Below are positions 16,387 through 39,241 of a DNA stretch of 64,000 nt, piece after piece. Every line of letters starts with the position of its first letter. Position 1 is the stretch's first letter. The stretch spans positions 1 through 64,000 of the forward strand of contig JAEPML010000016.1 in the NCBI GenBank assembly GCA_017643925.1. Direction: 5' to 3'. The DNA is from Roseibium sp. (lineage in GTDB: Bacteria; Pseudomonadota; Alphaproteobacteria; Rhizobiales; Stappiaceae). The position numbers were made by a program, and so were the translations under genes. The notes under the pieces are model-generated. The model had not been told where the DNA came from. It saw nothing but the letters and a program-made list of their open reading frames with translations, and did no database searches.

Positions 16387-17022
16387 TCAGGCGATCAGCG
16401 CATTCGTGCCGATGGTTATCGAGATCAGGATTGCGGCAGTGAGCAGCACGGAGGCCAGGCCCAGAAGAAGTCCCAGGATAACGACCAGCCCGTCGCGTTC
16501 CACGATGCCGACACCACAAATGAACAGGGCCGTTGCCGGGAACCAGCCGCTGAGTGGTACGGGCAGAAACAGTGTAAAGGCAATCACGAACAGCGCTAGC
16601 CCGAGCGCGCGTTCGTGTTTCGCGGCAAACAAACCTTCGTGCCTTGGTACGAGCATACGTTCCAGACGACGGGTCACTGGACGCAATCGTGCCAGTGTAC
16701 GCCTCAGTTTTGTATGATCGAGCGAGAGGCGTGCCAGTGGACCAGGCAGTTTCACGTGAGGAAAACCGAGCACCATCTGGAAAGTGGTCACCAGAACCGG
16801 CAGACCGGTGATGAGGGAAGATCCGGGTGGCAACGGCAAAAGAGTGAGCAGGGAAAACAGGACGATTGCCCAGCCAAACGAGGTCTCGCCCAGCGCTGAC
16901 AGCAAGTTGCCGAGCGTTAGTGTGCCGTCACGGTGCTGGTCGCGCGATGTCCGTAGAATCGGCAACGACAGCGAAGGCCGTCGGCGTCTTTCGCCCTGCA
17001 TAAAGTCTTCCATTCCATTCAC
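16387..17022 (-). CDS. ExoD family membrane protein
   Basis: A 211-residue protein of the exopolysaccharide-synthesis ExoD family. After a basic N-terminus comes TLGNLLSALGETSFGWAIVLFSLLTLLPLPPGSS, the family hallmark, then a second hydrophobic hairpin, a charged middle (RRTLARLRPVTRRLERML) and two C-terminal membrane segments. In Sinorhizobium ExoD affects exopolysaccharide and alkali tolerance; the molecular role is unknown. A MNGMEDFMQG start leaves several possible Met codons. Monocistronic. Confidence 0.85.
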   Translation of the reverse strand: MNGMEDFMQGERRRRPSLSLPILRTSRDQHRDGTLTLGNLLSALGETSFGWAIVLFSLLTLLPLPPGSSLITGLPVLVTTFQMVLGFPHVKLPGPLARLSLDHTKLRRTLARLRPVTRRLERMLVPRHEGLFAAKHERALGLALFVIAFTLFLPVPLSGWFPATALFICGVGIVERDGLVVILGLLLGLASVLLTAAILISITIGTNALIA

Positions 17023-28623: not shown

Positions 28624-29538
28624 TTAACGTGTCTCAACACCAAGCTTCTTGCAGATTTCATCAAGCTGCTCGAGTGACGTGTACTTGATCTTCAAGTCGC
28701 CGGATTCCTTTCCAGGCTTGTGACCGACTGTCACCTTGAGACCAAGCGTGTCCGTCAGGCGCTTTTCCAGCGCCTTGGTATCCGCATCCTTTTGCGGCTT
28801 GTCGTCGCCACTGACCTTCTCGCCGCGCAGCTTCGCCAGCGCGACCGGGTCCTGGGAGATCTTCTCGGCGTCGCGGACAGTCAGATCCTTTTCCACGATC
28901 AACTCCGCCAGAACCTTGGCCGTTTCTTCATCAAGCGTGATCAGGGCACGGGCATGCCCGGCTGTCAGGATCCCTTCCGAGAGATAGTCCTTGACCGAAT
29001 TCGGGAGCTTCAAAAGCCGCATCGTGTTGGCGACATGACTTCGGCTCTTGCCGATCACCTTGGCCAGTTCACCCTGGCTGTAGTTGAACTCCGCGGTGAG
29101 CTGTTCGTAGCCCATTGCTTCTTCGACCGGATTGAGATCCGCCCGTTGCACGTTTTCGATGATGGCGAGTTCGAGGGCTTCCTGATCGGTAACCTCCCGG
29201 ATGATAATCGGGGCTTCGTGCAGTCCCGCACGCTGCGCGGCGCGCCAACGCCGTTCGCCCGCAATGATTTCAAACCGGTTGGTCTTTCCGGCAGCCGGCC
29301 GAACCAGGATCGGTTGCACGATGCCCTTTGCTTTCAGAGACTCGGCGAGGTCAGCAAGATCTTTTTCCGTGAAGGTCTTTCGCGGGTTACGCGGATTGGG
29401 CTCGATATGCTCGATCGGGACCTTGCGCGTATCGCGAACAATCTTTTCTGGCGGGGCCGCTGCTTCCGGAGCCGAATCTCCGATCAGTGCTGCCAATCCG
29501 CGGCCCAAACGTTTGTTTTTGCCGTCTTTATCCGCCAT
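28624..29538 (-). CDS. parB: chromosome-partitioning protein ParB
   Basis: A 304-residue CTP-dependent DNA clamp that loads at parS sites and, with ParA, segregates the origin region. The N-terminal RLGRGLAALIG motif (ParA interaction) is at residues 10-20; the CTPase motif GERRWRA is at about 94-100; the central HTH (YSQGELAKVIGKSRSHVANTMRLL) contacts parS; the C-terminal dimerisation domain is complete. Seven candidate parS sites lie 1.5-6 kb away. Encoded directly downstream of parA in one unit. Confidence 0.97.
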   Translation of the reverse strand: MADKDGKNKRLGRGLAALIGDSAPEAAAPPEKIVRDTRKVPIEHIEPNPRNPRKTFTEKDLADLAESLKAKGIVQPILVRPAAGKTNRFEIIAGERRWRAAQRAGLHEAPIIIREVTDQEALELAIIENVQRADLNPVEEAMGYEQLTAEFNYSQGELAKVIGKSRSHVANTMRLLKLPNSVKDYLSEGILTAGHARALITLDEETAKVLAELIVEKDLTVRDAEKISQDPVALAKLRGEKVSGDDKPQKDADTKALEKRLTDTLGLKVTVGHKPGKESGDLKIKYTSLEQLDEICKKLGVETR

Positions 29539-29634: not shown

Positions 29635-30459
29635 TCAGGCTGCAACCTTGCGCAATTCTCGCTCGCGTTGAATGATCTCAGACGCTAGACGCAGGTAGGC
29701 TTGGCTGCCTGCACATTTGAGGTCATAGAGCAGCGCCGGCTTGCCATAGGACGGAGCTTCTGAAATGCGAACGTTCCTGGGAATGACAGTCTCATAGACC
29801 GCGTCACCCATTGTCTCGCGCACGTCAGCCACAACCTGGCTGGAGAGATTATTGCGGCTGTCGAACATTGTCAGCACGATACCGTGGATGCTGAGTTCCG
29901 CGTTAAGCGCATTCTTCACCTGCTCAACCGTGCTGAGCAACTGGCTGAGACCTTCAAGTGCGAAGAACTCACATTGCAACGGCACAAGGATCGAATGCGA
30001 CGCGGACAAAGCGTTGATGGTCAGAAGGTTCAAAGACGGCGGACAATCGATCAGCACGTAGGTAAACCCGATCTCCTGAAACAGGCGAGAACGGGACAGG
30101 TTTTCGATCGCGCTGCGCATCCGGAACGCCCGGTCGCTGGTCGAAGCAATTTCAAGTTCAAGACCGAGCAGGTCCATGGTGGAGGGAGCCACCCAGAGAC
30201 GCTGAACAGCTGTCTCCCGCACCGCCTCGGCGAGCGAGCAGTCGCCACTCAGGACCTCGTAGGTCGACAGACCCCGGTCACGGTGTTCAATGCCAAGACC
30301 CGTTGACGCGTTGCCCTGAGGATCCAGGTCGATGACCAGGACCTTTTCCCCGATCGCCGCAAGCGCAGTTCCGAGGTTGATGGCCGTGGTGGTTTTGCCA
30401 ACACCGCCTTTTTGGTTGGCCAGTGCGAGAACACGTGGCGTTTCGGGAAGCACACTCAT
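29635..30459 (-). CDS. parA: chromosome-partitioning ATPase ParA
   Basis: A 274-residue deviant-Walker ATPase with KGGVGKTTTA at residues 17-26, DLDPQGNAS and the YVLIDCPPSLNLLT Walker B region. ATP-bound dimers coat the nucleoid and are released by ParB, pulling the origin. Transcribed in order rsmG-parA-parB (21 bases after rsmG, 96 bases before parB). Confidence 0.97.
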   Translation of the reverse strand: MSVLPETPRVLALANQKGGVGKTTTAINLGTALAAIGEKVLVIDLDPQGNASTGLGIEHRDRGLSTYEVLSGDCSLAEAVRETAVQRLWVAPSTMDLLGLELEIASTSDRAFRMRSAIENLSRSRLFQEIGFTYVLIDCPPSLNLLTINALSASHSILVPLQCEFFALEGLSQLLSTVEQVKNALNAELSIHGIVLTMFDSRNNLSSQVVADVRETMGDAVYETVIPRNVRISEAPSYGKPALLYDLKCAGSQAYLRLASEIIQRERELRKVAA

Positions 30460-30480: not shown

Positions 30481-31137
30481 TCACTTCGACCGGGCTGAAA
30501 TATTTGAAAAAACAAGCATCCGGCTCACAGGATCGACAAGACTTTCCTTTTCTACCAGATCGAATGCCCAAGAGTCAGAGGCTTCATTAACTTCTCTCTG
30601 AAAATCCTGACCTTTGTGGAAAACAGCCTTGGCACCCTGCGCCGTAAACGGCTCAGCCAGCTGAAAAAGCAGGTCCAGTGACGCAAGTGCCCGGGCAGAA
30701 ACGGCATCGACCTGCCCATGCCGCCACTCTTTCGCAACCGATTCGATCCGGCCTGGATGAACCGTTCCGCTGGATCCGGTTTCCCGAAGAGCCGTTCTCA
30801 GGAACGCGGCCTTGCGTTGATTGCTCTCGATCATGTGCACATGGCCATCCGGCTCGTCCGCAAGCAGGATCGCCGTCACGACACCCGGAAACCCACCGCC
30901 GCTGCCGATATCAACCCAGGTTCGGGCCTTTGGATAACTCCACTGCGTTTGCAAACTATCAGCAACGTGCCGCGTCCAAATGTCGGGGATTGTGGACGGC
31001 GCAATCAGGTTTTGTGCGGGTTGCCACTTGAGAACGAGGTCGACATAGATCTGGAGTCTCTCCAACGTTTCACGTGAAACATCCCCATACTTGTGCACAG
31101 CCTTTCCAGAACTGTTCAACACCACGGGACGCCCCAT
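30481..31137 (-). CDS. rsmG: 16S rRNA (guanine-527-N7)-methyltransferase
   Basis: A 218-residue Rossmann methyltransferase (GidB). The SAM motif WVDIGSGGGFPGVV and the VSARALASL stretch are intact. Loss of this gene in other bacteria gives low-level streptomycin resistance. Start and stop overlap: TGATG joins the mnmG stop to this ATG. Codons 19-23 (V-S-R-E-T) are encoded by GTTTCACGTGAAAC, a perfect parS core, so a partition site is embedded in the coding sequence. Confidence 0.96.
   Translation of the reverse strand: MGRPVVLNSSGKAVHKYGDVSRETLERLQIYVDLVLKWQPAQNLIAPSTIPDIWTRHVADSLQTQWSYPKARTWVDIGSGGGFPGVVTAILLADEPDGHVHMIESNQRKAAFLRTALRETGSSGTVHPGRIESVAKEWRHGQVDAVSARALASLDLLFQLAEPFTAQGAKAVFHKGQDFQREVNEASDSWAFDLVEKESLVDPVSRMLVFSNISARSK
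31066..31081. promoter_or_regulatory. parS site 1 (in rsmG), full palindrome core
   Basis: CGTTTCACGTGAAACA: the 14-bp core GTTTCACGTGAAAC is perfectly palindromic and matches the ParB consensus. It lies within rsmG, where it encodes the conserved V-S-R-E-T. It has no GANTC site, unlike the six intergenic copies. Confidence 0.92.
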
Positions 31138-33020
31138 CAGGCCGCCCCTTTCCGGCCGTGACGCTTCAGATGCGACAGGATCAGCGTCAGTGCGGCGGGC
31201 GTGATTCCGTCCATTCTGGAGGCCTGACCCAGGGTTGCCGGCCGGATATCAACGAGCTTCTGCTTCACTTCGTTTGAAAGACCGACAATCGCTTCGTAGT
31301 CGAAACCATCCGGGATTTCCAAGGCCTCATCACGCTTCAGCGCCTCGATGTCAGCCATCTGGCGCTCTAGATAAACCGCGTAGAGAGCGTCGGTCGCCAC
31401 CTGTTCCGCAATCTCTGACGGGATCTCTCCAAGCTCCGGCCAGACGGATTGCAGCCCCTCATAGGTCACATTCGGATAGGACAGCAGGTCAAATGCAGAT
31501 CTGCGGACACCGTCCTGATTGACCGGAAGACCCTTCTTCTGGGCTTCAGAGGGGGTAATCGTCAACCGCTTCAGCAGCGCCGCCGCATCGGCGATCTTTG
31601 CCATCTTTGCCTGATAGGCTTCCCGCCTCTCTTCGGAGACACAGCCAACCTCGAGCCCAAGTGGCGTGAGGCGCTGATCCGCGTTGTCGGCCCGCAGCGA
31701 CAGGCGGTACTCTGCGCGAGACGTAAACATCCGATAAGGCTCGGTTATGCCTCTCGTGATCAGATCATCGATCATCACACCGATATAACCCTGGGACCTG
31801 TCAACGATGAATGGTGCCCGGCCGGCTGTCTTGAGAGCCGCATTCAGTCCGGCGACAAGACCCTGAGCACCTGCCTCTTCGTAACCCGTTGTTCCATTGA
31901 TCTGACCGGCCAGATAAAGGCCCGGGCATTTCTTGGCCTCAAGCGTCGGCCTCAGTTCCCGCGGGTCCACGTGGTCATACTCGATGGCGTAGCCCGGCTG
32001 GATCACCTCAACGTCTTCCAGACCCGGAATGGTTTTCAGGAACGCCAGCTGGGCGTCCTCCGGAAGCGACGTGGAAATACCGTTTGGATAGACAGTGTGG
32101 TCGTCCAGCCCCTCGGGTTCCAGGAATATCTGATGCCCGTCCCGATCGCCGAAACGGACAATCTTGTCTTCAATCGAGGGACAATAGCGCGGGCCACGTC
32201 CCTTGATCTCTCCGGAATACATTGCCGAGCGCGAGAGATTTTCCCGTATGATCTTGTGGGTCTCGGGTGTGGTACGCGTGATATGGCACGGGATCTGAGG
32301 GGTCGTGATCTTGTCCGTCAGCGAGGAAAAGGGAACCGGATCGTCGTCACCAGGCTGCTCCTCCAGGCGATCCCAGTGAATGGTCCGACCGTCCAGGCGA
32401 GCCGGGGTACCGGTTTTCAGGCGCCCCAGCTCAAAGCCGATGGCCTCGAGCGATTCCGAAAGACCGAGCGCAGGTGCCTCGCCGGAGCGACCAGCCGGGA
32501 TCTTCCTGTCGCCTATATGGATCAACCCACGCAGGAACGTGCCGCTGGTCAGCACGATGGCATCGCAGGTAACAACCCGCCCGTCAGCCAGCTCGATACC
32601 ATTCAGGCGACCATCCACCTGGTCATCGAAACGGATCTTGTGCGCCTCTCCCTCGACAACGGTCAAGCCATCAATCGCAGCGATTTCCCTTTGCATTGCC
32701 TCGCGGTAAAGCTTGCGATCTGCCTGCGCGCGGGGGCCGCGAACTGCGGGTCCCTTGCGGCGGTTGAGCATACGAAACTGGATACCGCCCTGATCGGCAA
32801 CGCGCCCCATCAGTCCGTCCAGCGCATCAATCTCTCGAACCAGATGCCCCTTCCCCAACCCACCGATCGCGGGATTGCAAGACATGACGCCGATCGTATC
32901 GAAACGGTGCGTCACCAGGGCAGTCGCTGCTCCAGCGCGCGCAGCTGCTGCGGCAGCTTCACACCCGGCATGTCCACCGCCAATCACCACAACATCGAAT
33001 TTCAGATCCTGGTCGCTCAT
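31137..33020 (-). CDS. mnmG: tRNA U34 modification enzyme MnmG
   Basis: A 627-residue FAD protein (GidA) that, with MnmE, installs the carboxymethylaminomethyl group on wobble U34. The FAD motif [20 protein letters not shown] is at the N-terminus; [22 protein letters not shown], the GTFLRG stretch and the C-terminal helical domain ending in [14 protein letters not shown] are all present. Directly followed by rsmG. The 292-base gap upstream holds two parS sites. Confidence 0.97.
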
Positions 33021-33241: not shown

Positions 33242-33257
33242 GGATTCACGTGAAACA
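33242..33257. promoter_or_regulatory. parS site 2 with embedded GATTC
   Basis: GGATTCACGTGAAACA, between mnmG and mnmE. The right arm matches parS exactly; the left arm carries GATT for GTTT, making GATTC (33243-33247), a GANTC sequence. Confidence 0.85.
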
Positions 33258-33294
33258 TGTTCCGGTTCTGAATCGATCCTTGCGGATGCTGACT

Positions 33295-33310
33295 TGATTC
33301 ACGTGAAACA
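33295..33310. promoter_or_regulatory. parS site 3 with embedded GATTC
   Basis: TGATTCACGTGAAACA, one base from the 16-bp consensus. The change again creates GATTC (33296-33300). It ends two bases before the mnmE stop codon. Confidence 0.9.
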
Positions 33311-33312
33311 GG

Positions 33313-34662
33313 TCATTTCCCGATACAGAAGTCCCGAAAGATAACATCGAGTAGATCCTCGACATCGATGCGTCCCGTGATCCGTCCCAGAGCATCAGCC
33401 GCACGCCTCAGATCCTCCGCACGCAATTCGGTTGGCAGGTGATCCGAACTTACCGCGACCTCCAGGCCAGCAACGCAGCTTTCCAGATAATGTCGATGTC
33501 TTGCGCGGGTCGCCAGAGGCGCTTCGCTGAGCGAGATCGTTTCCTCAGCAAAATGGGTTAAAGCCGAAAAAAGCGGCTCCATTCCTTCCGCATTTTTGGA
33601 GGAACAAGCGATTTCCTTGATTGTTCCGGAAGAGTCTTGTTTCGGAGGAGTCACAAGATCCGCCTTGGTACGGACGGTCCATACCGGAACGTTGGACCTG
33701 AGATCCTCCGGCAGGCCCGAGTTTGGATCGGTCTTCTCGATGCCATCCGGTTCGACCGCCCAAAGGATCAGGTCTGCCTCACGGCCCCTTGCCTCTGCAC
33801 GGCGGATCCCTTCCTGCTCGATCACGCCCTCCGTTTTACGGAGACCTGCAGTATCCACGAGCGTGAGCGGATACCCACCCAGATCAAGATGCACTTCAAT
33901 GACATCGCGGGTGGTCCCCGCCTCCGCCGTCACGATGGCGACATCCCGACCGGCAATGGCATTCAGAAGGCTGGACTTGCCGGCGTTGGGTGCACCCATC
34001 AGGACAACCTGCAGACCGGACCGCAGCCGTTCTCCGCTGCGTGAACGGATCATGTGGTCGGAGATCTCCAACTGCAATTCAGCCGCCTCGGCCCAGACCT
34101 GGTCGGCCACGCTACCAGGAACGTCTTCCTCATCGGCAAAGTCGAAATCTGCCTCGATCATGGCCCGCATATGGATAAGACGTTTTCGCCAGTCTTCGTA
34201 CAGTTGTCCGAGCGCGCCCCCCATCTGGCGGACAGCCTGCTTTCTCTGACTTTCCGTCTCGGCGGCTATCAGGTCAGCCAGGCCCTCGACTTCGGTCAGA
34301 TCCATACGGCCATTGTCAAATGCCCGGCGCGTGAATTCTCCGGGCTCCGCCGGCCGACAATTATCAAAGGAAGAGAGAACACCCAGCATCGCGCTCACCA
34401 CAGCCCGGCCACCATGACACTGGAATTCCGCGACATCTTCACCGGTGAAACTCGCTGGGCCTTCAAAATAGAGGATCAACGCCTCGTCGATCGTATCGCC
34501 TGTGTCCGGGTCCCGGAGACGACACAGCGCCGCCTGACGTGGCGATGGCAACCGGCCGCACAGCGTTTCAACGATCTCCCTGGTGCGCGGGCCCGACACC
34601 CTAATGACAGCCACTCCCGAAGGCACAGCTCCACTGGACAGGGCATAGATTGTATCGGCCAT
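33313..34662 (-). CDS. mnmE: tRNA modification GTPase MnmE
   Basis: A 449-residue GTPase (TrmE), partner of MnmG. The N-terminal tetrahydrofolate-binding domain begins MADTIYALSSGAVPSGVAVIRVSGP; the G domain has GAPNAGKSSLLNAI and DTAGLRKT; the C-terminus ends in the catalytic Cys motif CIGK. The start at 34662 was chosen over a frame from 34701 because it fits the family and follows AGAGAAT-rich sequence. parS sites lie on both sides. Confidence 0.97.
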   Translation of the reverse strand: MADTIYALSSGAVPSGVAVIRVSGPRTREIVETLCGRLPSPRQAALCRLRDPDTGDTIDEALILYFEGPASFTGEDVAEFQCHGGRAVVSAMLGVLSSFDNCRPAEPGEFTRRAFDNGRMDLTEVEGLADLIAAETESQRKQAVRQMGGALGQLYEDWRKRLIHMRAMIEADFDFADEEDVPGSVADQVWAEAAELQLEISDHMIRSRSGERLRSGLQVVLMGAPNAGKSSLLNAIAGRDVAIVTAEAGTTRDVIEVHLDLGGYPLTLVDTAGLRKTEGVIEQEGIRRAEARGREADLILWAVEPDGIEKTDPNSGLPEDLRSNVPVWTVRTKADLVTPPKQDSSGTIKEIACSSKNAEGMEPLFSALTHFAEETISLSEAPLATRARHRHYLESCVAGLEVAVSSDHLPTELRAEDLRRAADALGRITGRIDVEDLLDVIFRDFCIGK

Positions 34663-34811
34663 CAATTCTCTTTCATCGGGGTGGACCACGGACCTGTTCA
34701 CTTGGCATCAAAGCCTCTTTAGCAACTCCTTATCTGAACAGGAAGATCCCGGGTTCCGTTCCCCAAGCCGTTCCGTATCCGATTCAGTCGACCTTCAGGC
34801 AACAGGAATGT

Positions 34812-34827
34812 TGTTTCACGTGAATCA
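34812..34827. promoter_or_regulatory. parS site 4 with embedded GAATC
   Basis: TGTTTCACGTGAATCA. The left arm is exact and the right arm is changed so that GAATC (34822-34826) arises; this is the same variant in the opposite orientation. It lies in the 408-base gene-free stretch between mnmE and the GNAT gene, which holds three parS sites and no gene I can support. Confidence 0.9.
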
Positions 34828-35009
34828 GTGTTGCAAGTCGCGGCATGCCGAGGCGAAGCTCACCGCCTCCTTTGAGGGGTCCTGCAGCAGGTTCTTGTTC
34901 AATTGGTCAGCCCAGAAGTCACTTGACCGATTGTGTGCTCGCGGATCGATTATCGATACGGGGCCGATTCAATTTAACCCCCGACATCGGCGAACCAACG
35001 CACCAAACA

Positions 35010-35025
35010 CGATTCACGTGGAACA
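35010..35025. promoter_or_regulatory. parS site 5 with embedded GATTC
   Basis: CGATTCACGTGGAACA. The right arm is the GGAACA variant known from other parS sites; the left arm creates GATTC (35011-35015). Confidence 0.8.
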
Positions 35026-35050
35026 TCGAGCCAGAGGAACACCCAGTGCC

Positions 35051-35066
35051 TGTTTCACGTGAATCC
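35051..35066. promoter_or_regulatory. parS site 6 with embedded GAATC
   Basis: TGTTTCACGTGAATCC, only 41 bases from site 5 and in opposite orientation. Left arm exact; right arm gives GAATC (35061-35065). It ends four bases before the GNAT stop. Confidence 0.85.
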
Positions 35067-35070
35067 CGAG

Positions 35071-35682
35071 TCAGTCCTGCTGACCTTCTTTGTCACTCTC
35101 ATTGACTGCGTTATCCACCTGCTTCTTCCAGTCTGACAGCGACAGGCGATAAAGAACATGCGGAGCGATCGGATGATCAGCGGGAAGCGACGGATGGAGA
35201 AAATCTCCTTGGTGGTCCCGGATCATGCCGATCCGGGTCATCACCTTCTGCGACGGTTCATTGGCCGGTATCGTGAAGGCGACGATCTCGTCAAGACCAA
35301 TGGTTTCAAAACCGAATCGAATCCAGGCCCTCGCGGCTTCACTCGCGTAACCATATCCCCACCCGGACCGCTTCAGGCGCCAGCCGATCTCCACGCACGG
35401 ATCGAAGGGAAGCGGCGCGGCGTAGGTTGGTCTGTTCAGTCCGACAAAATCGAGAAACTCCCCAGTCTCCTTGACTTCTATCGGAGCCATGCAGAACCCG
35501 TCCTGGCTCTGTTTCTCAATGCATCTCGAGATGAGAAATTCGGATCGCTCCCGGCTGAGGACTTCCGGGAAGTAACGCATCACTTCGGGGTCAGCACACA
35601 GGGTCGCAAAGGGATCGATATCTTCGTCCTGCCAGGCGCGCAGCCACAGCCGGTCCGTCTCCAGGAAAATATGTCTGGTCAT
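35071..35682 (-). CDS. GNAT family N-acetyltransferase (RimJ/RimL type)
   Basis: A 203-residue acetyltransferase. It starts LETDRLWLRAWQDEDIDPF, the RimJ/RimL signature, and has the acetyl-CoA segment GWRLKRSGWGYGYASEAARAWIRFGF and the IPANEPSQKVMTRIGM stretch. Substrate unknown; could be a protein N-terminus or small amine. It sits inside the parS cluster between mnmE and rho with no obvious functional link. Confidence 0.87.
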   Translation of the reverse strand: MTRHIFLETDRLWLRAWQDEDIDPFATLCADPEVMRYFPEVLSRERSEFLISRCIEKQSQDGFCMAPIEVKETGEFLDFVGLNRPTYAAPLPFDPCVEIGWRLKRSGWGYGYASEAARAWIRFGFETIGLDEIVAFTIPANEPSQKVMTRIGMIRDHQGDFLHPSLPADHPIAPHVLYRLSLSDWKKQVDNAVNESDKEGQQD

Positions 35683-35707
35683 GAATTCGGTTCCGAATCA
35701 AAGAGAT

Positions 35708-35723
35708 AGATTCACGTGAAACA
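35708..35723. promoter_or_regulatory. parS site 7 with embedded GATTC
   Basis: AGATTCACGTGAAACA, between the GNAT gene and rho. Right arm exact; left arm gives GATTC (35709-35713). This is the site closest to the putative origin, about 3.1 kb away. Confidence 0.85.
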
Positions 35724-35791: not shown

Positions 35792-37057
35792 TCAAGTGTT
35801 CATGCTGTCGAAGAACTCGTCGTTGGACTTGGTCTGCTTCAGCTTGTCCAAGAGGAACTCGATCGCATCGACCGTTCCCATCGGGTTGAGAATACGGCGC
35901 AGGACAAAGGTCTTCTTGAGACGCTCATGCGGCACGAGAAGCTCTTCCTTGCGGGTACCGGACCTCTGGATGTCGATCGCCGGGTAGACGCGCTTGTCGG
36001 AGATCTTGCGGTCAAGGATGATTTCGGAGTTACCCGTTCCCTTGAATTCCTCGAAGATAACCTCGTCCATGCGGCTGCCGGTATCAATCAGCGCTGTCGC
36101 GATGATGGTCAGGGAACCACCTTCTTCGATGTTACGGGCGGCACCGAAGAAACGCTTCGGGCGCTGCAGCGCATTGGCATCGACACCACCGGTCAGCACC
36201 TTGCCCGATGATGGCACAACGGTGTTGTAGGCGCGGCCGAGACGGGTAATGGAATCCAGCAGGATGACGACATCACGGCCGTGCTCGGTCAGACGTTTTG
36301 CCTTCTCGATGACCATCTCGGCAACCTGTACGTGGCGCGTTGCCGGTTCGTCGAACGTGGACGATACCACTTCGCCGTTCACCGTACGCTGCATGTCGGT
36401 CACCTCTTCCGGGCGTTCGTCGATCAGAAGAACGATCAGGTAACATTCCGGATGATTGGTCGTGATGGATTTTGCGATGTTTTGCAGGAAGACCGTTTTA
36501 CCGGTTCTCGGCGGCGCCGTGATCAGGGCACGCTGGCCTTTGCCGAGGGGGGCTGCCAGGTCGATGACCCTGGCTGACAGATCCTTGATGGTCGGATCTT
36601 CAATTTCCATCCTGAAGCGCTCATCCGGATACAGAGGCGTCAGGTTGTCAAAGTGAACTTTGTGCCGGGCTTTTTCCGGATCTTCAAAGTTGATGGAGTT
36701 GACTTTGAGCAGCGCGAAGTAGCGTTCACCTTCCTTCGGACTGCGAATGTGACCTTCTACCGTGTCCCCTGTCCGCAGGCTGAATCGTCGGATCTGCGAA
36801 GGTGAGACGTAGATGTCATCGGGGCCAGGCAGGTAGTTCGCATCCGGAGATCGAAGGAAGCCGAAGCCATCCTGCAGAACTTCGACGACGCCTTCGCCGA
36901 TAATCTCCACATCCTGAGCCGCTAGGTTTTTCAGGATTGCGAACATCAGCTCCTGCTTGCGCATGGTGCTGGCGTTTTCGACTTCGAGCTCCTCGGCAAA
37001 CTGCAGCAGCTCTGTCGGTGTTTTTGCTTTTAGATCTTTTAGTTTCATTTCCCGCAT
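35792..37057 (-). CDS. rho: transcription termination factor Rho
   Basis: A 421-residue hexameric RNA helicase. The N-terminal Rho_N helix bundle ([21 protein letters not shown]) is followed by the RNA-binding cold-shock fold with DGFGFLR at residues 63-69, then the ATPase with P-loop [24 protein letters not shown] and the Q-loop/R-loop region [21 protein letters not shown]. The start [10 protein letters not shown] matches alphaproteobacterial Rho; an internal ATG three codons on is possible. No ribosome-binding site is obvious. Length is normal. Confidence 0.97.
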
Positions 37058-38835: not shown

Positions 38836-39241
38836 ATTTCAAAACCAATAAGATTCTTTATTTGAATCTGTTTTTTATATTTGTGCGTGGATTACCGGGA
38901 TCAATTTCTATCCACAATGCTTCATCTCAAATTCCCTGACGGGATAACTTTCGCCGATTGGCTCGATGAATCTGTCCCCAAGAGTCAATAACATGAAAAA
39001 ATCATATCTGACAAAGTCTTAGGAGAGCATTTACCTTTCGTTAATAAATTGGGCGATAGTGGAAAATCTGTCGATATGTCACAGGCAATTTGTGAGTTCC
39101 ACTTTGCAGCGAACCGTTTCGGACTCAGTTCGCGCAAATTTAAACTTTGTTAATAAATCATGCTGAGCGGGCATAAACTTCGTGCTAGGCACTGAGAAAC
39201 CAAAAGACTCCCAAACCATCAACAGCCCTGGGGATGACACC
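38836..39241. other. putative chromosomal replication origin (oriC)
   Basis: The region between hemE and ppsR, the location of the mapped Caulobacter origin and its rhizobial equivalents. It is clearly more AT-rich than its surroundings. Signals seen: a near-consensus DnaA box CTATCCACA (38908-38916, one mismatch to TTATCCACA), a weak reverse TTATCCC (38943 area), two copies of GTTAATAAAT (39040-39049 and 39149-39158), and five GANTC methylation sites (38852, 38864, 38968, 38982, 39122). A long A/T tract around 38856-38884 could be an unwinding element. No canonical CtrA TTAA-N7-TTAA site is present; TTAA pairs have a six-base gap. Position and composition make the call; the boxes alone would not. 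Confidence 0.7.

Follow-up and report, generated by a model that had tools for sequence, protein, structure and literature searches.

parS sites in which one arm doubles as a CcrM target, in a Roseibium chromosome and across the Hyphomicrobiales

How bacteria couple chromosome segregation to replication of the origin is, to our knowledge, not settled. Among the systems involved, chromosomal ParABS relies on parS sites read by ParB (Spo0J), and the sites described here are like those parS sites in being inverted repeats around a CACGTG core that cluster by parAB, rsmG, mnmG and mnmE near the probable origin. The parS1 site of Agrobacterium is reported to match the Bacillus consensus (PMC9239152; here and below, what is taken from a cited paper refers to the part of its text that was covered). 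In repABC replicons, namely plasmid pAMI4 and Agrobacterium ori2, GANTC motifs have been described near the parS of RepB (PMC9040568, PMC11514494). The present analysis concerns 64,000 nucleotides of Roseibium sp. (assembly GCA_017643925.1, contig JAEPML010000016.1, positions 1 to 64,000 of the forward strand), a stretch that is called the window throughout. It holds one plain parS palindrome and six parS sites in which one arm reads GATTC instead of GTTTC, always through the same base, so that the arm acquires GANTC, the target of the CcrM methylase. A parS site with such a GATTC-type, GANTC-bearing arm is called a hybrid below. Comparison with related genomes identifies the hybrid as a conserved parS variant found across the order, its second arm doubling as a CcrM target.

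An earlier, sequence-only reading of the window had located all seven sites correctly, including the plain site in rsmG that codes V-S-R-E-T in frame; it was also right that the change (always GATTC or GAATC) falls at one position in all six others and that two of them, 34812 and 35051, are reversed. Its further claim, that each of the six keeps one exact arm, holds for five, which pair the GATTC arm with an exact GTTTC arm, and fails at 35010, where the second arm is GTTCC (GGAAC). The hybrid sites differ from the 16-bp inverted repeat TGTTTCACGTGAAACA by 1 to 3 mismatches each, and with up to 3 mismatches allowed this 16-mer has 8 matches in the window where 0.26 would be expected: the seven parS sites and, at 16616, one unrelated to them. 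Over the whole 5.83 Mb genome, the 14-mer palindrome GTTTCACGTGAAAC occurs as 1 exact and 5 one-mismatch sites, all in the window cluster; the backwards control pattern of the 14-mer gave 2 matches per strand at one mismatch or fewer. All 5 one-mismatch sites are of the GATTC type, which is one of 21 possible single changes when orientations are pooled, and site 35010 stands two mismatches from the palindrome. GANTC itself is scarce in the window (124 occurrences vs 240 expected from base composition). The hybrids lie in the gaps around mnmE and in the gap between a GNAT acetyltransferase gene and rho, and every parS site falls between parB (28624) and an AT-rich gap on the hemE side (38836-39181). 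By sequence and position, the seven sites are a real parS cluster of the chromosomal type.

The same variant recurs in related genomes. For this comparison 141 loci, each covering 20 kb around mnmG or less at contig ends, were taken from the window, 60 other genomes of its family (Roseibium and its kin) and 80 genomes from elsewhere in the order Hyphomicrobiales. In the 61 family loci, 206 of the 216 one-mismatch parS sites were of the GATTC type (alongside 91 perfect sites); in 60 of the 80 loci from elsewhere in the order the figure was 62 of 95 (alongside 92 perfect sites). At least one hybrid was present in 59/61 family loci and 37/80 loci from the other families, and a whole-genome count over 150 sampled genomes of the order found one or more hybrids in 64 and none in 86. 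Hybrids occur in 27 of 45 lineages, in both orientations and at many loci. A broader sample held 289 genomes of Alphaproteobacteria, 4 of them from the order: among the other 285, plain parS was found in 229 and a hybrid in 8, which is about chance (around 6 estimated from genome sizes), and a few may be genuine, as in one genome (G311) that has a hybrid less than 1 kb from a plain site of the same contig. In the loci, tandem sites are often met at distances of 19-60 bp. Two hybrids facing the same way and separated by 9-39 bp occur together in at least 119 stretches of named genomes; among the matches listed, 109 of the 119 belong to Hyphomicrobiales by record name (ten are not so named), with Roseibium, Pannonibacter, Pseudovibrio, Devosia, Pelagibacterium, Mesorhizobium, Aminobacter, Chelativorans, Hoeflea, Bartonella, Hyphomicrobium, Cohaesibacter and others represented.

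Individual sites do not keep one state. The orthologous site downstream of mnmE is hybrid in three genera (g1 to g3) and plain in three more (g4, g6 and g7, eight loci of g6 not being covered), and on a tree of 85 genomes the presence of hybrids changes at least 18 times; it follows from both that parS sites switch repeatedly between the hybrid and plain forms. The orientation of the hybrid in the same gap also varies between families, and for that reason orientation or polarity was rejected as the purpose of the asymmetry.

Some side observations were made on parS sites in these samples. One genome of the class sample (G292) has 79 plain parS sites in 1.8 Mb, and four others (G273, G264, G134 and G065) have 13-18. 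Two loci of a single family (L092 and L120, family f189) contain no exact parS: the usual places hold sites with one-base changes in the CACGTG core, and parB is present. A Lachnospiraceae record (L212) has, at a contig end, a tandem parS array with a spacing of about 37 bp that includes plain, GTTCC and GATTC arms.

Whether a base or a motif is kept in the variant arm can be judged from how that arm varies. Among sites of the 141 loci with an intact core and one arm exactly GTTTC, the other arm was GATTC in 279, GACTC in 12 and GATCC in 1, with GAATC and GAGTC both at 0; where it lacked the A it was GTTTC in 225, GTTCC in 11, GCTTC in 7, GTCTC in 1 and GGTTC in 0. A C at position -4 is thus tolerated on arms with T and not on arms with A, and a C at -5 (the N of GANTC) the reverse. 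The comparison within sites is the fairest, because the two arms then belong to one genome and face a single ParB. In the variation around the 279 exact hybrids, the A-arm showed 15 second changes, 12 of them at N, 2 at -4 and 1 at -1, and the T-arm showed 23, which fell 9 times at -4, 8 at -7, 2 at -6, 2 at -1, 1 at -3, 1 at -2 and never at -5. Counted as changes at the fixed GANTC positions vs changes at N, the A-arm stands at 2/12 and the T-arm at 18/0 (Fisher p = 4e-7, by sites, 141 loci); with lineages counted instead of sites the contrast is 2/5 vs 9/0 (p = 0.005), a crude figure rather than a formal phylogenetic test. Sites of the GACTC type number 34 in 26 of 397 genomes of the order, spread over 8 families; the backwards control gave 1. 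In the 12 GACTC carriers whose mnmG position was determined, site and gene share a contig, 10 of the 12 sites lying within 10 kb of mnmG and the others about 21 and 46 kb away; within 1.5 kb of the GACTC-type sites, 12 short loci held no second parS-like site. The A-arm behaves as GANTC with N limited to pyrimidines. In the 141 loci and the 397 genomes, the sequence pattern suggests that GANTC, more than a single base, is kept in the variant arm, and changes at N on one arm and at the positions that GANTC fixes on the other favour, without proving it, selection on the CcrM motif over mere tolerance by ParB. The expectation from the window that the GANTC variant would be conserved in relatives was borne out: it is specific and recurrent, and in its evolution the variant arm resembles GANTC more closely than it does a parS half-site.

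ParB appears to need one good arm, given that sites with GANTC in both arms were absent from the 141 loci (0 vs about 40 expected if the arms were independent); one double hybrid was seen among named loci (L154). The window ParB has the equivalents of the contact residues Q162, G170, K171, S172, R173, N178, G201 and R204. Two of the 141 loci gave no ParB; in the other 139, G170 was present in 136, R204 in 134 and the other six contact residues in all. Residue 184, an alanine in Caulobacter, is lysine in 121/139. This lysine makes Caulobacter ParB bind several sites, in experiments that varied only bases 1 and 6, and its equivalent in Noc contacts the phosphate of base 2, the base changed in hybrid sites (PMC7383237); lysine 184 may be the reason why the order tolerates the hybrid. 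It does not mark the genomes that have one: outside the family, hybrids were found in 28/60 genomes with K184 vs 9/18 others. ParB specificity residues were accordingly rejected as the switch for hybrid sites, the contacts being nearly invariant and K184 not separating the two groups.

A scan of about 300 ParB columns turned up one further candidate. Glutamine at the 163 equivalent, beside the contact Q162, was found in 18 non-family genomes from 10 families, all with a hybrid, and in 0 without one; in four mixed families it was confined to the members with hybrids. Independent pairs drawn from the tree gave about 6.5 concordant to 0 (median p 0.016) or 6 to 0 (median p 0.03). The residue is missing from 19/37 non-family genomes with hybrids and from all family genomes, the window included (its ParB residue 156). 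Because it was picked post hoc from the scan, and because so many hybrid genomes do without it, the association of Gln163 with hybrids is a lead only.

The sequence-only reading had held that hybrids are intergenic only and that the rsmG site must stay plain, and neither proved true of the relatives. With intergenic taken as outside nine mapped genes (12 hybrids beyond the gene span were left unclassified), 254 of 279 hybrids lie outside and 25 inside, the latter in mnmE (14), rsmG (9), the GNAT gene (1) and hemE (1); plain sites number 101 outside the mapped genes and 124 inside. The rsmG site is plain in 112 cases and hybrid in 9 across the 141 loci, and in five families the hybrid version codes V-S-R-E-S in place of V-S-R-E-T. 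GANTC occurs once per 355 bp outside mapped genes vs once per 544 bp inside them; PMC3973325 is cited for a higher density outside genes. As a side observation, GANTC is denser close to plain parS sites in genomes without hybrids, at 5.6 per kb within 50 bp vs 3.7 per kb at 50-113 bp, in counts that are non-independent.

The features of the window are collected in the table below. In Caulobacter the replication origin lies on the hemE side. By that analogy the AT-rich gap at 38836-39181, which holds five GANTC in 346 bp, is the probable replication origin, and the hybrid sites would lie 3.1-5.6 kb from it; DnaA-box-like sequences were no commoner in the window than by chance. The genome encodes a CcrM ortholog, a 385-amino-acid open reading frame with a RAMA domain whose best model is CcrM NF050803 (E 2e-187, 622 bits, under the model cut-off of 830).

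Table. Features of the window: parS sites, neighbouring genes and the probable origin
Feature	Coordinates	Strand	Remarks
hybrid parS	33242..33257	+	GATTC in left arm; GANTC at 33243
hybrid parS	33295..33310	+	GATTC in left arm; GANTC at 33296
hybrid parS	34812..34827	-	reversed; GAATC in right arm; GANTC at 34822
hybrid parS CGATTCACGTGGAACA	35010..35025	+	GATTC in left arm; GANTC at 35011; other arm GTTCC (GGAAC), inexact
hybrid parS	35051..35066	-	reversed; GAATC in right arm; GANTC at 35061
hybrid parS	35708..35723	+	GATTC in left arm; GANTC at 35709
plain palindromic parS inside rsmG	31066..31081	.	in frame as V-S-R-E-T
parB, chromosomal ParB	28624..29538	-	DNA-contact residues as in Caulobacter ParB; Lys at 184 equivalent
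parA	29635..30459	-	ParA/MinD-type models only, all under cut-off; gene order beside parB
rsmG (gidB)	30481..31137	-	carries the plain parS
mnmG (gidA)	31137..33020	-	
mnmE (trmE)	33313..34701	-	between hybrid sites
GNAT acetyltransferase gene	35071..35682	-	between hybrid sites
rho	35792..37057	-	flanks the parS cluster
probable replication origin	38836..39181	.	AT-rich gap between hemE and Kinase-PPPase gene; near the cumulative GC skew low

The hybrid can be read as a bifunctional parS, with an ordinary ParB half-site for one arm and, for the other, a half-site that ParB tolerates and that is also a CcrM target; we hold this reading tentatively, at a little short of an even call. Both functions, ParB half-site and CcrM target, would then be under selection. 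Since the hybrid sites adjoin the probable origin, the fork would pass them almost at once, so that hemimethylation would follow nearly directly on the start of replication, and both sister copies would stay in that state until a late point of the cycle. On the variant arm, ParB might nucleate differently on fully methylated DNA than on hemi- or unmethylated DNA, and ParB loading, hence origin segregation, would in that way be tied to replication, with the plain rsmG site loading ParB whatever the methylation. The direction of such an effect can only be guessed: as methyl groups would stand in the major groove of one half-site, methylation might weaken ParB, with relief on newly made DNA. A more specific version, which would make the cluster an epigenetic centromere of the Hyphomicrobiales where CcrM methylation of one arm gates the loading of ParB-CTP (cytidine triphosphate), newly replicated hemimethylated origins loading ParB otherwise than old DNA does and segregation being timed to replication, with ParB Gln163 perhaps part of the reading mechanism in some lineages, we consider rather unlikely.

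Several observations weigh against a bifunctional site. One rival is tolerance or affinity tuning by ParB, an explanation in which A is merely the mildest damage, the weaker sites sit beside one or two plain ones and GANTC is a by-product; this has a reasonable but lesser chance of being right. A CcrM-type RAMA domain was found in 146/150 genomes of the order, 83 of these 146 without a hybrid, and such near-universal presence cannot explain the 86/150 genomes that lack hybrids, so the presence of CcrM was rejected as a switch within the order. Outside it, hybrids are near chance (the 8/285 given above) although CcrM has been reported across most of the Alphaproteobacteria (PMC3973325). Tandem hybrids also appear in one Lachnospiraceae record and one Brachybacterium record, where CcrM would be unexpected (it was not searched for), and the idea that hybrids go with CcrM alone and are accounted for by it did not hold. 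Brachybacterium's class is taken to be without CcrM, though no search for it was made there; in 50/246 genomes of that class, 56 sites depart from T at the position, 44 having A, 5 C and 7 G (a tally that leaves out plain sites), which argues that ParB itself tolerates A and prefers it over C or G. The free-N signal, moreover, was absent around 301 exact hybrids in 102 non-duplicate named loci, a set picked for exact GATTC pairs (0 GACTC, 1 GATCC): the excess of C at -5 on A-arms was not reproduced there, and the other arm had 5 changes at -7. In Caulobacter, GANTC methylation at the parS locus was unchanged by forced CcrM expression (PMC5172544). Tolerance is also in keeping with the lack of double hybrids in the 141 loci, which a need for one strong arm would produce, with the absence of hybrids from many genomes that bear CcrM, with the prevalence of K184 in the order and the broadened binding and base 2 contact ascribed to that lysine (PMC7383237), and with the binding of half-sites by Pseudomonas ParB (PMC10419367). 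What it does not predict is an A-arm that varies at N and hardly at T(-4), opposite to the T-arm, nor the GACTC sites in 8 families, and K184 fails to separate genomes with and without hybrids. The tolerance alternative raised with the sequence-only reading thus gains from the preference for A in Brachybacterium's class and loses by the arm-specific variation at N, behind which epistasis in ParB binding may lie.

Two other explanations were weighed. The embedded GANTC might serve CcrM or another methylation reader (promoter control of the GcrA type, or ParB keeping CcrM off the GANTC and so setting methylation locally) with ParB loading unaffected; most hybrids lie outside mapped genes, where GANTC is denser, GANTC is somewhat raised near plain parS too, and DNA-bound proteins can block CcrM (PMC5172544), but such a role would not need the motif at one exact parS position, in many contexts and both orientations, and we think it improbable. 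Copying with drift, by which a variant of single origin spread by tandem duplication and descent, would suit the frequency of tandem sites and the sharing of orthologous sites within genera; the repeated changes on the tree, the scatter over lineages, orientations and loci, and the failure of other single changes to be equally spread leave it very little room. Should the GANTC embedded in a bifunctional site indeed alter how ParB loads, cells would read replication status at the centromere itself; should methylation make no difference, the hybrids would still be a clean case of a parS half-site drifting under a second motif. The sites are widespread, in Roseibium, Pannonibacter, Devosia, Mesorhizobium, Hyphomicrobium and others.

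The hybrid 14-mer is absent, in either orientation, from the literature text searched. No report of GANTC inside a chromosomal parS was found in that literature (figures and the main parS survey, Livny 2007, lay outside its coverage), nor, in the text covered, any direct methylation input to a chromosomal ParB site. Several known systems nonetheless resemble this one in part. The window sites share with the asymmetric parS of Caulobacter the conservation of one half among sites (PMC5815017), and they recall the half-parS of Pseudomonas, whose ParB binds half-sites (PMC10419367); unlike here, the weaker half in those two systems is not tied to GANTC in the text covered. They are like the epigenetic CcrM sites of promoters and repABC in being GANTC motifs, mostly outside mapped genes, in an alphaproteobacterium that bears CcrM. 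The window ParB, as in chromosomal ParABS, keeps the conserved DNA-contact residues, and the sites differ from the parS of that system in carrying an A at the second base of one arm, which makes the CcrM target. And whereas the GANTCs of repABC replicons lie near the parS-like sites of RepB, in the parts of those reports covered, the motif in the window lies inside the chromosomal parS half-site.

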